Positions 1,206 to 7,750 of a stretch of 64,000 nucleotides of DNA are shown here, in pieces. The stretch lies in the NCBI RefSeq assembly GCF_000429265.1, contig NZ_AUBN01000003.1, positions 186,001-250,000 on the forward strand, given 5' to 3'. Origin of the DNA: Actinomyces gerencseriae DSM 6844. GTDB lineage: Bacteria; Actinomycetota; Actinomycetes; Actinomycetales; Actinomycetaceae. Position 1 is the first letter of the stretch; the number at the start of each line of letters is the position of its first letter. The notes beneath the pieces are model-generated. The model did no database searches. It saw only the letters and a program-made list of their open reading frames with translations, and was not told where the DNA came from. Made by a program: the position numbers and the translations under genes.

Positions 1206-1805
1206 GTGCTGCTCACCGTCGCCGTCATCGGCCCCGCCCATGCCCTCAAGGGAGAGGTCCGTCTTGAGATCCGCACCGACGATCCCGAGGGCAGGCTCTC
1301 TCCGGGCACCAGTCTGCCGGTTCAGGCGCCCCGGGGCCGCACGGCGCCCTCGCACGACCAGCCCTCATACGACCGCCTGACCGTCGCGCGTCTGCGCTTC
1401 GACGGCACCCGCTGGTTCGCCGCCTTCGAGGAGGCGCGGGACCGCACCGCCGCCGAGGCCCTGCGCGGCGTGCGCCTGCTGGTCGACACCGACACCGTCG
1501 GCGGAAGCGCCGCCGAGGGCTCCGGCGATGCCGACGACGAGGCCTGGTACGCCCACGAGCTCATCGGTCTGCGGGCCGTCCGCGCCCTGCCCGGCGCCGA
1601 GCCCCAGCACCTCGGCGAGGTCGTCGACCTCGAACCCGGTGTCGCCCAGGACCGCATCGTCGTGCGCACTCCCGACGGCGAGGAGGTCGCCGTGCCCTTC
1701 GTCGAGCAGCTCGTCCCCGGGATCGATCCCGAGGCCGGTGTCGTGACCCTGGATCCTCCCGGCGGGCTCTTCCCCGGCGTCGGCCGGACCGAGGAGGCCC
1801 GCTGA
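1206..1805 (+). CDS. rimM: Ribosome maturation factor RimM
   Basis: RimM binds S19 and assists maturation of the 30S head domain. The protein has 199 residues. The N-terminal half is the RimM beta-barrel ([20 protein letters not shown] near residues 8-27). The C-terminal half is the PRC-barrel ([12 protein letters not shown], then [12 protein letters not shown] and a [12 protein letters not shown] end). An insert of about 12 hydrophilic residues ([12 protein letters not shown]) lengthens the N-domain. The GTG start is supported by TAGGTT six bases upstream and by family alignment. The stop overlaps the trmD start (TGATG), so the two are translationally coupled. Confidence 0.95.
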
Positions 1806-3373
1806 TGGTCCGGGCCCCCGCGGGATCCGGCGCGGGACCCGACGTTCCCGGCTCCCTGCGCCTCGACGTCGTCACGATCTTCCCCGATTACCCGAAGGCG
1901 CTGAACCTCTCCCTCATCGGCAGAGCGGCGCGGACCGGGCTCATCGACCTGCACGTCCACGACCTGCGCGAGTGGACCCACGACCGCCATCGCACTGTCG
2001 ACGACACCCCGCTCGGCGGCGGCGCCGGCATGGTGATGAGGCCCGACGTGTGGGGCGAGGCCCTCGACTCCCTCCTCGCTCCCCCCGCCGGCGCCGCGGG
2101 GGCCCTCCCCGCGCCGGTCGGCCGCCCCGCCCCCCGCGACACCGGGGCCTCTTCGGGGCCCGACCGCCAGGTCCTCGTCATCCCCACACCCGCGGGCGAC
2201 CTGTTCACCCAGCGCACCGCTGAGGACCTCGCCCGGGCCGACCGGATCGTCTTCGCCTGCGGGCGCTACGAGGGCATCGACGCCCGCGTCGCCGAGCACT
2301 ACCGGAGCCTCGGCGTCGAGGTGCGCGAGCTGTCCATCGGCGACTACGTGCTGAGCGGCGGCGAGGTCGCGGCCCTGGTCATGATCGAGGCCGTCGCCCG
2401 CCTGCGCCCCGGAGTTCTGGGCAACCCCGCCTCCGTCGTCGAGGAGTCCCACGGCGGGGCAGGCCTTCTGGAGCACCCCGTTCACACCCGTCCCGTCGCC
2501 TGGCGCGGTCTCGACCTGGCCGACTCCGACCCGCACCTCCTGTCGGGCGACCACGCCCGCATCGCCCGCGCACGTCGCGACCAGGCCCTCGCCCGCACGG
2601 CGGCCCGCCGTCCCGACATGATCGGCCGTCTGCGCCCCGAGACCCTCGACGCCGCCGACCGCGCCGTCCTGGCGCGCCACGGCTGGGCGGTCCCGGAGGG
2701 CGCGCGGGGCCCGGTCGGGCTGGTCGTGCGACCCGCCCTGGCCGAGGACGTCGAGGCTCTGTCCGCCCTGGCGGCGCGCACCTTCCCCGACGCCTGCCCG
2801 CCCTTCCTCGCACCGGAGCGGATCGCCGCCCACATCGCGACCAACCTCGCCCCCGAGCGCTTCGCCGTCTGGCGGGCCGACCCGCGCGCGGTCCTGACGG
2901 TGGCCGAGCTGCCCGGCGGACTCGCACCGGACGGCCTCGCGGCGGGCGCCGATCCCGCCGACGCCGTGGCCCCGGGGGAGATCATCGGTTACAGCGTCGT
3001 GCTCGTGGAGCGGGCCGACCCCGAGGGCGGGCTCATCACGGGGCTGGACCAGCGGCCCGACGCCGTCGGCGTCCCCCCGCGCTCCGACGGCACCGCGGGA
3101 CTGGCCGCCGAGCTGTCCAAGGCCTACGTCGATACGCGCCTGCGCTCCTCCGGAGTCGCCGCGGTGCTCCTGGACGAGGCCGTCCGCGCCGCCGCCGCGG
3201 AGGGCGCCACCGTCCTGTGGCTCGGCACCCACGAGCGCAACCGCCGGGCGCAGAGGGCCTACAGGCGGCGCGGCTTCCGCATCGTCGGATCGCGAGTCTA
3301 CGACGTCGGCGGGCGGACCTGCCGGGACGTGGTCATGAGCCTTGACCCGCGGGAGGCCCGCCATGAGCACTGA
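1805..3373 (+). CDS. trmD: TrmD tRNA (m1G37) methyltransferase fused to a GNAT acetyltransferase
   Basis: Residues from about 17 to 285 are TrmD, the SPOUT-family enzyme that methylates G37 of tRNAs using SAM. The knot motifs are clear: [22 protein letters not shown], and the GxLLEHPxxTRP substrate loop. An insert of about 35 Ala/Pro residues sits near residue 95. From about residue 305 to the end is a second domain of GNAT type, with the acetyl-CoA motif [15 protein letters not shown] followed by [21 protein letters not shown]. The total of 522 residues is about twice a normal TrmD (near 245). The frame is open through the junction, so this is one fused protein. The acetyl substrate is unknown; a tRNA or ribosomal target would be inference. 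The stop overlaps lepB by 11 bases. Confidence 0.93.
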
Positions 3374-4256
3374 GAGCACTGAGAGCACTGACGGCACTGA
3401 GAACACTGGCAGTACGGGCGGAATGGGCGGTGCGGGCCGCACCGACCGCATCGGGACGGTGAGGGTGACGGAGATGAGGCAGATGAGGAATGCGCCCGGG
3501 CGCGCCGCCGAGGCCGCCCTTCCAGAGCGGCCGCACGGGCGGTCGCGCGGTCTCGGCGGGAGGCGGGAGCCCCACCCGTTCGTGCGCAGGCTGGTCACCC
3601 TGGTCGCCGTGCTGGTGGTCATCGCCGTCGTGCGCAGCCTGGTCGTGCAGAGCTACACCATTCCCTCGGGGTCCATGGAGAACACGCTCCACGCCGGCGA
3701 TCGCATCATGGTCACGGTGTACGACGCCGGCTCCGTCGAGCGCGGTGACGTCGTCGTGTTCACCGATCCCGACAACTGGCTCACCGAGCCCGGGCCCACA
3801 GGCGTCGCCCGCGTCATCCAGGATGTGCTGGTGGCTGTGCGCCTGCTGCCGGAGAACGCGGGGCACCACCTCGTCAAGCGGGTCGTCGGACTGCCCGGCG
3901 ACCACATCGTGGCGGATGGCACCGGTCCGATGAGCGTCAACGGGATCGTTCTCGACGAGCCCTACCTCAAGCCCGGTCGCACCAGTTCGGACATCGCCTT
4001 CGACGTCACCGTCCCCGACGGCTACGTGTGGGTCATGGGCGACAACAGGTCGAACTCGGCCGATTCCCGGGTGCACCGGGGCGATGCCCACGGCGGCTTC
4101 GTGCCGGCCGGCAACATCGTCGGCACCGCCAGGTTCGTGTACTGGCCCATCGGACGCTGGTCCGGGCTGGGGGGCGGTCGGGACGTCTTCTCCCGCGTGC
4201 CCGAGGCGGCCTCCGCCCCGGTGACGACGCCCGCTCCGGCCGTCGGCGAGCACTGA
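3363..4256 (+). CDS. lepB: Signal peptidase I, first copy
   Basis: Cleaves signal peptides from exported proteins at the outer face of the membrane. The protein has 297 residues: a low-complexity N-terminus built on Ser-Thr-Glu repeats (9-base unit near 3366-3415), a basic stretch, one membrane segment near residues 76-95, then the catalytic domain. The nucleophile is Ser104 in [10 protein letters not shown] and the general base is Lys172 in [13 protein letters not shown]. The [12 protein letters not shown] box follows. The ATG at 3363 has CGGGAGG just upstream; a longer TTG start at 3342 is less likely. It overlaps trmD and lies upstream of rplS, with a second lepB after rplS. Confidence 0.95.
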
Positions 4257-4517: not shown

Positions 4518-4868
4518 ATGACCAACCTGATTGACCAGATCGACGCGGCCTCGCTGCGCGACGATGTGCCCGACTTCCGAGCCGGTGACACCCTCAAGGT
4601 GCACGTCAAGGTCGTCGAGGGCAGCCGTACCCGTACCCAGGTGTTCCAGGGCGTCGTGATCGCCCGCCAGGGCGGCGGCGTCTCCGAGACCTTCACGGTT
4701 CGCAAGATCTCCTTCGGCGTCGGCGTCGAGCGCACCTTCCCGGTTCACACGCCCACCGTTGAGAGGATCGAGGTCGTCACTCGCGGCGACGTGCGTCGGG
4801 CCAAGCTGTACTACCTGCGCAACCTGCGGGGCAAGGCGGCCAAGATCAAGGAGCGCCGCGAGAGCTGA
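4518..4868 (+). CDS. rplS: 50S ribosomal protein L19
   Basis: Large-subunit protein at the interface with the 30S subunit. The 116-residue product shows the standard L19 features: [16 protein letters not shown], the [16 protein letters not shown] barrel segment, and the closing [19 protein letters not shown]. The ATG at 4518 is preceded by GGAGAG at 4508-4513. It has its own candidate promoter and a terminator directly after the stop, so it can be transcribed alone although it lies between two lepB genes. Confidence 0.97.
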
Positions 4869-4914: not shown

Positions 4915-4976
4915 TTCTCACCACCGGGGCATCCAGGCCTCGTTATGCATACGCACCACCTCGGAACAGGAGCACG

Positions 4977-6980
4977 GTGACCTCACCGCAGGACGACCGC
5001 GAGGAGTTCGGTCCCGACGTCGACGACGGCGGGACCGCGACCTCTCCCGACAAGGAGCAGGCCGACGACGAGTCCGCGGCCGCTCCTCCCGAGGAGAGCC
5101 CGACGCAGGCTGCGCCCGCGGAGGCGGGCGATGAGGCCGTGGCGTCCGACGGGGCGGATGAGCTCGCACCCGAGGAGGCGGAGTCCGTCCCCGCTCCCGC
5201 GGGCCGGGAGCCCTGCGAGGCGGATGAGGCCGGCTCGATCGAGCAGCCGGTCGAGCACGAGGCCGACGCTCCCGAGTCCGATCCGGTCGAGGCGAGCGGG
5301 GAGCCGGAGTCGGCGCCCCCGGTCGTCGCGTCCGCCGACTCCGCCGGGTCGGGACGGCAGGCCGTTGAGCCGGTCGACTCCGAGCAGGTCGGGTCCGGGT
5401 CCGGCACTGAGACTGAGGACCCGGCTGAGGCCGGGCGGCAGGCCGGTGGGGCGGACATGGCCGAGCCGGCCGAGCCGGCCGAGCCGGCCGAGCCGGCCGA
5501 GCCGGCCGATCCGGTCGAGGTCGAGCCCGAGGCGGAGGAGCTCGCCGAGGTCGATCCGGTCGAGGATGCTGGGCCCGGGATCGCCGAGTCCGATGCCGAG
5601 CCGGTCGAGGTCGAGCCCGAGACGGAGGACTCCGCCGAATCCGGGTTGGCCGAGTCCGCTGAACCCGGGCGGATCGCGTCCGAGGCGGATGAGGCGGGGG
5701 CCGATGACGCGAGGAGCGAGCCGGATGCCGTCGAGGCCGGGCCTGCTGAATCCGGGGCCGAGTCGGTGCCGGACGACCTCGAGGAGGGGCGGATCGAGCC
5801 GGTCGAGGCCGTGACGGATGTCGAAGCCGACGAAGCATCCGAGGCGCCCGAGGGACGCGAGGCGATCGACTCCCGGGCCGATGACGGCCGAGCCGCGGGC
5901 GACGGCTCGGAGTCCGTCGTCGAGCCGCACGAGGAGCGGGCGCCCGTCGTGGACGAGGGCGGCGGTGCTGCGCCGCACGAGCCGGATGAAGAGCCCGATG
6001 CCGCGGACTCCGCGCCGGAGGCCCGGCCCCCCGCGCCGGAGATCGATGAGCCCTCGCCCGGGGCCGGCGGCACCGGGGTCGTCGAGCCCGATGCCGGGAC
6101 CACGGCACGGAGCCTCGCGGCAGAAGCGGCCGACGCGTCGACTCCGCTGCCGGAGGCGGTGTCCGGAACGGAGGAGCCCTCGTCGCACGCCGGTGAGCCG
6201 GCTGCCGGTGCCGAGGAGTCCGAGCCGGAGGAGCCCATCGACCTCCCCCCCTCCTACCCGCCCACCCGGCGCCCTCGTCCCCTGCCGATCCCTGGCAGGG
6301 AGAAGGATGAGGACTCCTCGGAGACCCGACCGCGCCGGGGATGGCTGTCCACCGTCGCCGTCGTCCTGGTCGTCCTCGCCCTGTCCGCCTTCATCAAGAC
6401 TCACATCGTCCAGACCTTCGAGATCCCGTCCGGTTCGATGGAGAACACCCTGCAGTCCGATGACCAGGTCGCCGTGCGGATGTACCACGCCCACGACGTC
6501 CACCGCGGAGACGTCGTGGTCTTCGCGGACCCGGGCGGCTGGCTCGATGCCGAGGATCCGTCCGGTTTCAAGGGGCTCGTTCGCGATGGTCTCATCCTCA
6601 CCGGACTGCTGCCGAGGAACTCGGGGCATCACCTCATCAAACGAGTCATCGGCGTCGCCGGGGACCGCGTCACGGCCGATGGGCACGGCGTCCTGACCGT
6701 CAACGGCGTCCCCCTGAATGAGACCTATGTCAAGGAGGGTACCGTCCCGTCCTCGGTGCCCTTCGACGTCATCGTCCCCGAGGGCTGCGTATGGGTCATG
6801 GGCGACAACCGCTCCAACTCCCTGGACTCCCGATTCCACCAGGACGACCCGCACGGCGGCGCCGTGCCGTTGAAGGACGTCGTCGGCGTGGCCACCAACG
6901 TCGTGTGGCCGGTGAGCCGCTGGAGCTCGCTCGACAACGGTGAGGCGGTCTTCGCCGACGTGTCCGGCTCCGGCCCGTGA
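4977..6980 (+). CDS. lepB2: Signal peptidase I, second copy, with very long acidic N-terminal extension
   Basis: The C-terminal 215 residues are a complete signal peptidase I: membrane segment near 456-478, nucleophile Ser487 in [10 protein letters not shown], general base Lys555 in HHLIKRVIGVAGD, and the [12 protein letters not shown] box. Ahead of the anchor are about 450 residues rich in Glu, Asp, Ala, Pro and Ser, with almost no hydrophobic or aromatic residues, including five AEP units in tandem (bases 5460-5507). Such a segment should be disordered and strongly negative. With the usual N-in topology it would lie in the cytoplasm. Total length of 667 residues is more than twice the family norm. 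The GTG at 4977 has AGGAG about 6 bases upstream; a shorter internal start cannot be excluded. Its stop overlaps rnhB (GTGA). Confidence 0.9.
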   Translation: MTSPQDDREEFGPDVDDGGTATSPDKEQADDESAAAPPEESPTQAAPAEAGDEAVASDGADELAPEEAESVPAPAGREPCEADEAGSIEQPVEHEADAPESDPVEASGEPESAPPVVASADSAGSGRQAVEPVDSEQVGSGSGTETEDPAEAGRQAGGADMAEPAEPAEPAEPAEPADPVEVEPEAEELAEVDPVEDAGPGIAESDAEPVEVEPETEDSAESGLAESAEPGRIASEADEAGADDARSEPDAVEAGPAESGAESVPDDLEEGRIEPVEAVTDVEADEASEAPEGREAIDSRADDGRAAGDGSESVVEPHEERAPVVDEGGGAAPHEPDEEPDAADSAPEARPPAPEIDEPSPGAGGTGVVEPDAGTTARSLAAEAADASTPLPEAVSGTEEPSSHAGEPAAGAEESEPEEPIDLPPSYPPTRRPRPLPIPGREKDEDSSETRPRRGWLSTVAVVLVVLALSAFIKTHIVQTFEIPSGSMENTLQSDDQVAVRMYHAHDVHRGDVVVFADPGGWLDAEDPSGFKGLVRDGLILTGLLPRNSGHHLIKRVIGVAGDRVTADGHGVLTVNGVPLNETYVKEGTVPSSVPFDVIVPEGCVWVMGDNRSNSLDSRFHQDDPHGGAVPLKDVVGVATNVVWPVSRWSSLDNGEAVFADVSGSGP

Positions 6981-7750
6981 TCCCTTCTGCTCCCGCGGCT
7001 GCGGCGAGGCGGTCGCGGCCGCTCCGCCCCGACCGGGAGGTCGAGACCGGGATGCTGACGCGCCACCGGCTGGTCGGCGGCATGGACGAGGTCGGGCGCG
7101 GCTCCCTGGCGGGACCGGTGACCGTCGGTCTGGCCGTCGTCGGCCGCGAGACGTCGGACGCCTTCCCCGGGACCCTGGCCGATTCGAAGCAGCTCACGCC
7201 CCGACGCCGCGAGGCCCTCGTGGGACCGTGCCGCGCGTGGGTCCTCGACTGGGCCGTGGCCCATGCCTCCCCCGCGGAGATCGACGACCTCGGCATCGTC
7301 GGCGCCCTGCGCCTGGCCGGCCGGCGTGCCCTCGCCCGAGTGGCCGCGCGCGACCGTCTGCCCGGCGCGATCATCCTCGACGGGCGGGCGGACTGGCTGA
7401 CCGGCACCGATCCCGACCTGCTCGACGCCCTGGCCGGCGAGCCCGCCGGCACCGACCCGCCCCCGGGCGACGGCGCACCGGCTCTGCCCGCCCGTCTCAT
7501 CCCGGGCGTGCGCATGGAGGTCGGGGGAGACGCCCGCTGCGCCGTCGTCGCCGCGGCGTCCGTCCTGGCGAAGGTCGAGCGCGACGCCCTGATGACGGCC
7601 CTGCCCGATCCGGGCTACGACTGGGCCTCCAACAAGGGGTACTCCTCCGGGGCGCACATCGAGGCACTGGCTCGTCTGGGCGCGAGCGACCAGCATCGCC
7701 GCTCGTGGCGCCTCCCCGGGCTGACGCCCGCGGACGGAACGACCCGTTGA
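6977..7750 (+). CDS. rnhB: Ribonuclease HII
   Basis: Removes RNA from RNA-DNA hybrids, including single ribonucleotides in DNA. The acidic catalytic residues are visible as Asp37 and Glu38 in GGMDEVGRGSLAGPV and Asp135 in IILDGRADWL. The later segment CAVVAAASVLAKVERD and the GYDWASNKGY motif are typical of type 2 RNases H. The length of 257 residues is normal, with a Pro/Gly-rich insert near residue 155. The GTG start shares four bases with the lepB2 stop, indicating translational coupling in a lepB2-rnhB unit. Confidence 0.95.
   Translation: MIPSAPAAAARRSRPLRPDREVETGMLTRHRLVGGMDEVGRGSLAGPVTVGLAVVGRETSDAFPGTLADSKQLTPRRREALVGPCRAWVLDWAVAHASPAEIDDLGIVGALRLAGRRALARVAARDRLPGAIILDGRADWLTGTDPDLLDALAGEPAGTDPPPGDGAPALPARLIPGVRMEVGGDARCAVVAAASVLAKVERDALMTALPDPGYDWASNKGYSSGAHIEALARLGASDQHRRSWRLPGLTPADGTTR

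Follow-up and report, generated by a model that had tools for sequence, protein, structure and literature searches.

The window, by which we mean the whole 64,000-nucleotide stretch of Actinomyces gerencseriae DSM 6844 analysed here (contig NZ_AUBN01000003.1, positions 186,001 to 250,000 of the forward strand), carries two signal peptidase genes within the gene order trmD (1805-3373), lepB1, rplS, lepB2 and rnhB (Table 1). The genes flanking lepB2 are presumably rplS and rnhB, named from their sequences. trmD (PF01746, residues 40-270) is fused to a GNAT acetyltransferase domain (PF00583, residues 431-491), both within a single 522-aa frame.

By profile match, LepB2 is a type I signal peptidase (S26) with a predicted cleavage activity, PF10502 being matched at E 2.4e-37 and 128.9 bits (curated cut-off 22.9) and TIGR02227 at 117.6 bits (cut-off 47). 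Ser487 and Lys555, which we take from the family to be the catalytic residues, are invariant across 21 aligned LepB2 sequences. The family match, the Ser and Lys positions and the order of one predicted helix followed by the catalytic domain are those of bacterial type I signal peptidases, whereas the 422 acidic residues and the LPPSYPP motif ahead of the helix set LepB2 apart, 10-80 residues being given as usual at this position by the initial annotation.

The sole predicted membrane helix is preceded by 452 residues. The first 422 of these comprise 85 Glu and 43 Asp against 1 Lys and 13 Arg (128 acidic vs 14 basic residues), together with one aromatic residue, and in an AlphaFold2 model built on 21 sequences helix or strand first appears at residue 453 (mean pLDDT 53); the model is of low confidence overall, and only the lack of structure and the position of the helix ahead of the catalytic domain are taken from it. 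The orientation of the helix is judged from arginines only, those ahead of it placing the N-terminal tail probably in the cytoplasm. The net charge is +3 for the segment that begins at the motif and stops 30 residues short of the catalytic Ser. The initial annotation had described a second LepB with a Glu/Asp/Ala/Pro-rich extension and tandem AEP units before its anchor, and both are present in the 667-aa open reading frame; its figure of about 450 acidic disordered residues holds for residues 1-422, by composition and in the model, and fails for the last ~30 before the helix, which are mildly basic and contain LPPSYPP, an element absent from that description.

Table 1. Features of the lepB2 locus, with positions in the window
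Feature	Positions	Strand	Basis
lepB1, paralogue without the motif, start uncertain	3342..4256	+	ORF; profile match
rplS, upstream neighbour	4518..4868	+	named from sequence
Leader ggaacaggagcacg with Shine-Dalgarno-like aggag (4968-4972), 5' of GTG 4977	4963..4976	+	bases identical in relatives
lepB2, type I signal peptidase, 667 aa	4977..6980	+	ORF and translation; PF10502 and TIGR02227 above cut-off
Acidic disordered arm, residues 1-422	4977..6242	+	composition; no helix or strand and low pLDDT in model
9-bp tandem repeat coding AEP, 6.8 copies	5459..5519	+	repeat search
90-bp tandem unit, 1.8 copies	5505..5669	+	repeat search
LPPSYPP conserved motif, residues 423-429	6243..6263	+	pattern in 49/49 genus loci; alignment
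Mildly basic stretch ahead of helix, residues 430-452	6264..6332	+	sequence; net basic in 45/49
Predicted membrane helix, residues 453-476	6333..6404	+	model and hydrophobicity of sequence
Peptidase_S26 match, residues 458-644, including Ser487 (6435-6437) and Lys555 (6639-6641)	6348..6908	+	profile match; both residues invariant in 21 sequences
rnhB, downstream neighbour, 4-base overlap with lepB2	6977..7750	+	named from sequence

The extension is real, judging by its shared start region, its frame-keeping indels and its codon-position signal. The window, genomes G016 and G031 and A. israelii share 23 identical bases around the GTG start codon at 4977 (14 upstream and the 9 that follow, GTGACCTCA), and 31 of 49 Actinomyces loci have a loose N-terminal signature at a candidate start. 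Across the tail, A occupies 33% of second codon positions vs 6% of first and 4% of third positions, and the tail frame encodes 30% D+E and 3% K+R, compared with 1-8% D+E in the five other frames. Two of these five are likewise stop-free over the tail and the DNA is GC-rich, so that openness of the frame proves little and is not used as proof. In frame-blind alignments of four tail pairs, 10 of 12, 5 of 7, 18 of 20 and 9 of 11 gaps are multiples of three and 92-98% of aligned bases share the same codon phase; the values for a fifth pair (L117/L132) are 2 of 8 and 87%. The stretch from GTG 4977 to the catalytic Ser contains seven further in-frame ATG, GTG or TTG codons, at which translation might begin internally near the membrane and leave the upstream frame noncoding. 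Set against the bases shared with three relatives and the codon-position signal, this is barely credible; we rejected it on the shared start region, and the annotated start stands. Minus-strand open reading frames also overlap the tail, but the codon-position signal fits the plus frame, and antisense coding was rejected.

Tail length and charge among Actinomyces

We compared the lepB loci of the window and 48 other genomes of a genus search (49 Actinomyces). Long tails occur in eight of these genomes, one of them deduced across a contig break, and short tails in the remaining 41. Measured from the first start downstream of rplS up to the catalytic Ser, the length is 486 residues in the window, 550 in G016, 557 in G005 and 566 in G032; depending on the choice of start, 297-323 in G031, 301-354 in G010 and 279-305 in G025; and 184 in G033. 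In the other 40 genomes, A. israelii not being among them, it is 83-161. The lepB2 gene of A. israelii (G012; L112, L113) is split by contig ends within the tail: one contig has the N-terminus, another the 208 residues that run up to the Ser, and the gene is therefore counted as presumably long. An assembly break inside the tail is as expected of a repeat-rich stretch. In 60 loci from other genera of the family, the longest possible tail has 237 residues before the Ser. A group of three LepB2 (L101, L123 and L140), presumably of the A. oris type, carries an added low-complexity C-terminal tail beyond the catalytic domain.

Between relatives, the aligned tails share 34-53% identity and the remaining protein 74-92%. 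On a midpoint-rooted LepB2 tree, where gain and loss are not told apart, three changes are required to account for the eight long rows, and well-supported branches force two of these changes. By these comparisons the length of the extension is not conserved across Actinomyces; it is variable, a lineage-limited lengthening. Judged by what the initial annotation itself had named as refuting, the start passes and the extension is largely unconserved; its frame is kept in most indels, in four of the five pairs.

Tails are net acidic in all 49 Actinomyces, that of A. israelii being counted on one contig's part only, and every long form measured has the same charge sign. The start-picking rule used for the charge counts chose an internal start at four loci (L105, L133, L126 and L145) and an early start at L110; seven tails (the window and six relatives) were re-measured, with starts set by hand for three. 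The stretch from motif to helix is net basic in 45 of the 49, the other four including the close relative G016. Glu in three tail pairs is exchanged with Asp (37 times), Ala (30), Gly (29), Ser (17), Arg (10) and Lys (4), a pattern that suggests selection on tail charge; the shortage of Lys may be due in part to base composition.

These data bear on a close rival of the reading that we prefer below, namely that the lengthening is neutral: replication slippage at GAG/CCG/GCC-rich repeats would have extended a tail without a job, its acidity reflecting the repeat units and a weak selection against harmful charge. The tandem repeats, the 41 short-tailed genomes and the divergence of the tails relative to the rest of the protein all accord with such a process, whereas net acidity in every genome, the scarcity of Glu/Lys exchanges and the recurrence of the same charge sign in each long form over three changes on the tree do not, and we regard neutral lengthening as possible, at well below even odds.

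The initial annotation had pictured the extension as a negatively charged cytoplasmic brush. A conserved functional brush of this length is not supported, given how many genomes have short tails and how far the tails have diverged. The arm itself might still act electrostatically, by binding positively charged signal-peptide n-regions or by placing the enzyme at the translocon. Its excess of 128 acidic over 14 basic residues would suit such a role, and the acidity kept throughout the genus leaves room for it; in view of its unconserved length and sequence, and of relatives that manage with ~30 acidic-biased residues ahead of the motif, we consider this brush unlikely.

FtsY, a component of protein export, has an acidic and variable N-terminal region, the A domain, and the LepB2 arm is likewise acidic and variable, with no homology claimed. 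We dropped FtsY as a parallel for the tail after finding no long acidic arm in seven Actinomyces loci (7 of 20 stretches were recognised, the window genome's lying outside the seven). Also dropped were oppositely charged LepB1 tails, K+R exceeding D+E in only 8 of 32, with starts set by rule of thumb. According to a study of disordered regions (PMC6634968), such regions keep molecular features as their sequence diverges; the LepB2 arm is alike in that features are kept while the sequence drifts, whereas the study is a general one with S. cerevisiae as a keyword. A literature search, mostly outside subscription papers, turned up no publication on a long acidic signal peptidase tail.

A motif between the tail and the membrane helix

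The pattern [LI]PP[SAT][YIFLV]xP is present in LepB2 of all 49 Actinomyces, in 14 of them as LPPSYPP, and sits ~25-50 residues ahead of the helix, after the acidic tail. Ahead of the helix, an alignment of 21 sequences has only four invariant residues, all of them in the motif: Leu423, Pro424, Pro425 and Pro429. Elsewhere in the family, 60 loci from other genera were taken from the best rows listed among 162 genomes with a match, and 42 of them contain the motif, mostly as MPPSY or MPPSF; the reversed motif occurs in none of these 60, and several of the 18 loci without the motif have near forms, e.g., MPRSFTP. It is absent from all 19 readable loci (of 20 returned) in other families of the order, and from all 32 LepB1 paralogues counted, the thirty-third (L130) being unrecognised by the Ser pattern and standing outside the count.

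In 16 of the 49 genomes there is no lepB1 at the locus and the single LepB match bears the motif; since the motif-bearing copy is the sole LepB there, the motif goes with the copy that is retained throughout. The other 33 genomes have lepB1, and all eight long forms occur among them, a weak association given that the long forms fall in few lineages and that lepB1 is common. A second, general LepB (lepB1) is present in the window genome, as would be expected beside a pilus-dedicated signal peptidase of the A. oris LepB2 type; we take A. oris LepB2 to occupy the same gene position. Rows that are likely of the A. oris type carry LPPSIQP or LPPSIPP after an acidic tail, and have ~145-161 residues before the catalytic Ser vs 486 in the window LepB2. 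The tail could thus be imagined as a pilus-specific adaptation that brings LepB2 to pilus precursors or sortases, and the window genome has two sortase matches, in addition to the weak association with lepB1. PMC5817204 cites A. oris LepB2 for biofilm formation, and a title cited there ties a type I signal peptidase to pilus assembly. Yet the 16 genomes in which LepB2, as the sole LepB match, must act generally also have the motif and the acidic tail, which makes a pilus-specific role very unlikely.

At the DNA level, a tight pattern for LPPS[FI]PP gives 20 matches in the 49 genomes, against none for the reversed control; a looser pattern gave control matches and was not relied on. By position, eight of the 20 lie in lepB2, six in murJ and six elsewhere, the last comprising three in one orthologous gene, one in a Pro-rich open frame and two without a long in-frame ORF. 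We note that LPPSIPP is found in an orthologous cytosolic protein of G008, G006 and G042 (L321, L322 and L334), and that an HtrA-like protease (L286/L317, G029) has LPPSYPP in its N-terminal region, with both protein identities judged by eye.

The motif in MurJ linkers

In the window genome, the DNA pattern for LPPSYPP has two matches, one within lepB2 and one within the linker behind the membrane domain of the lipid II flippase MurJ (L179 1501-1521, G000:C3:144116-144135). The MurJ identity is supported by a PF03023 match, and the region beyond the linker has a weak match to a kinase profile. Following mycobacterial MurJ, we call this C-terminal part a putative pseudokinase. Among 49 Actinomyces MurJ linkers (loci L240-L269 and L298-L316), 18 contain [LM]PPS[YFI]xP, possibly an undercount, as 24 of the 49 were read to 190 residues and the L261 linker is only 20 residues long. 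None of the 49 contains the reversed form, and shuffled linkers gave a mean of 0.012 matches and at most 1 in 500 trials, a lenient control in that shuffling breaks up clustered prolines. The 18 rows are related and fall by eye into five groups (four LPPSYPP, six LPPSFPP, four LPPS[IF][AT]P, three Pro/Ser-rich and one alone).

Outside the genus, the motif was found in none of 26 readable rows among 30 genomes. Only 9 of the 26 show the full 260 residues of upstream open frame needed for a MurJ fusion, and the nine MurJ-like fusions in other genera are without it. With nothing in these 26 rows, the co-occurrence of the motif in LepB2 and MurJ is confined to Actinomyces as far as seen. Its presence in both proteins is a lead towards a shared partner. 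Speculatively, [LM]PPS[YFI]xP might be an Actinomycetaceae short linear motif by which envelope machines dock on one and the same cytoplasmic partner, such that protein export, through LepB, and cell wall synthesis, through MurJ, may have an adaptor in common, access to which the long arm of LepB2 would tune; we hold this wider proposal to be doubtful.

Interpretation of the LepB2 N-terminus

We favour, at a probability of about 0.5, a reading in which a charge-constrained disordered arm, lengthened by in-frame tandem duplication, is joined to a conserved docking motif. LepB2 would be an ordinary outward-facing Ser/Lys type I signal peptidase with a one-helix anchor and a probably cytoplasmic N-terminus, the latter being modular: a net-acidic disordered arm, then [LMI]PPS[YFI]xP, then a usually basic stretch, and then the helix. 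Because constraint falls on the sequence of the motif but only on the charge of the arm, we read the former as the docking site and the latter as a spacer with loose limits on its length; the motif would be the constrained, probably partner-binding part, whereas the arm, if held to composition and not to length or sequence, would be free to grow by in-frame tandem duplication, as in the window. Most likely, then, growth of the arm to 422 residues would have been tolerated, the acidic region serving as a spacer by which the motif and the basic stretch stay accessible. Counting against this reading are the out-of-phase gaps of the L117/L132 pair, the 18 loci of other genera without the motif, the four genomes whose stretch after the motif is not net basic, the possible part of base composition in the rarity of Lys and the low confidence of the model. 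The data show the start, the frame, the composition, the absence of structure in the model, the conservation of the motif, the variation in length and the tandem repeats; we infer the docking, the spacer role, the cytoplasmic side and the selection on charge. LPPSYPP probably matters more than the long acidic arm, and would be the better target.

Accounts of signal peptidase I usually centre on its outward catalytic domain. The finding of a conserved motif by the anchor, next to an arm whose length varies from ~30 to ~500 residues in a single genus, suggests selection on the inner side as well, and the LepB2 proteins of Actinomyces offer a natural length series for probing an acidic disordered arm. 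If the link to MurJ is true, the motif would point to an unknown partner that joins protein export and cell wall synthesis.
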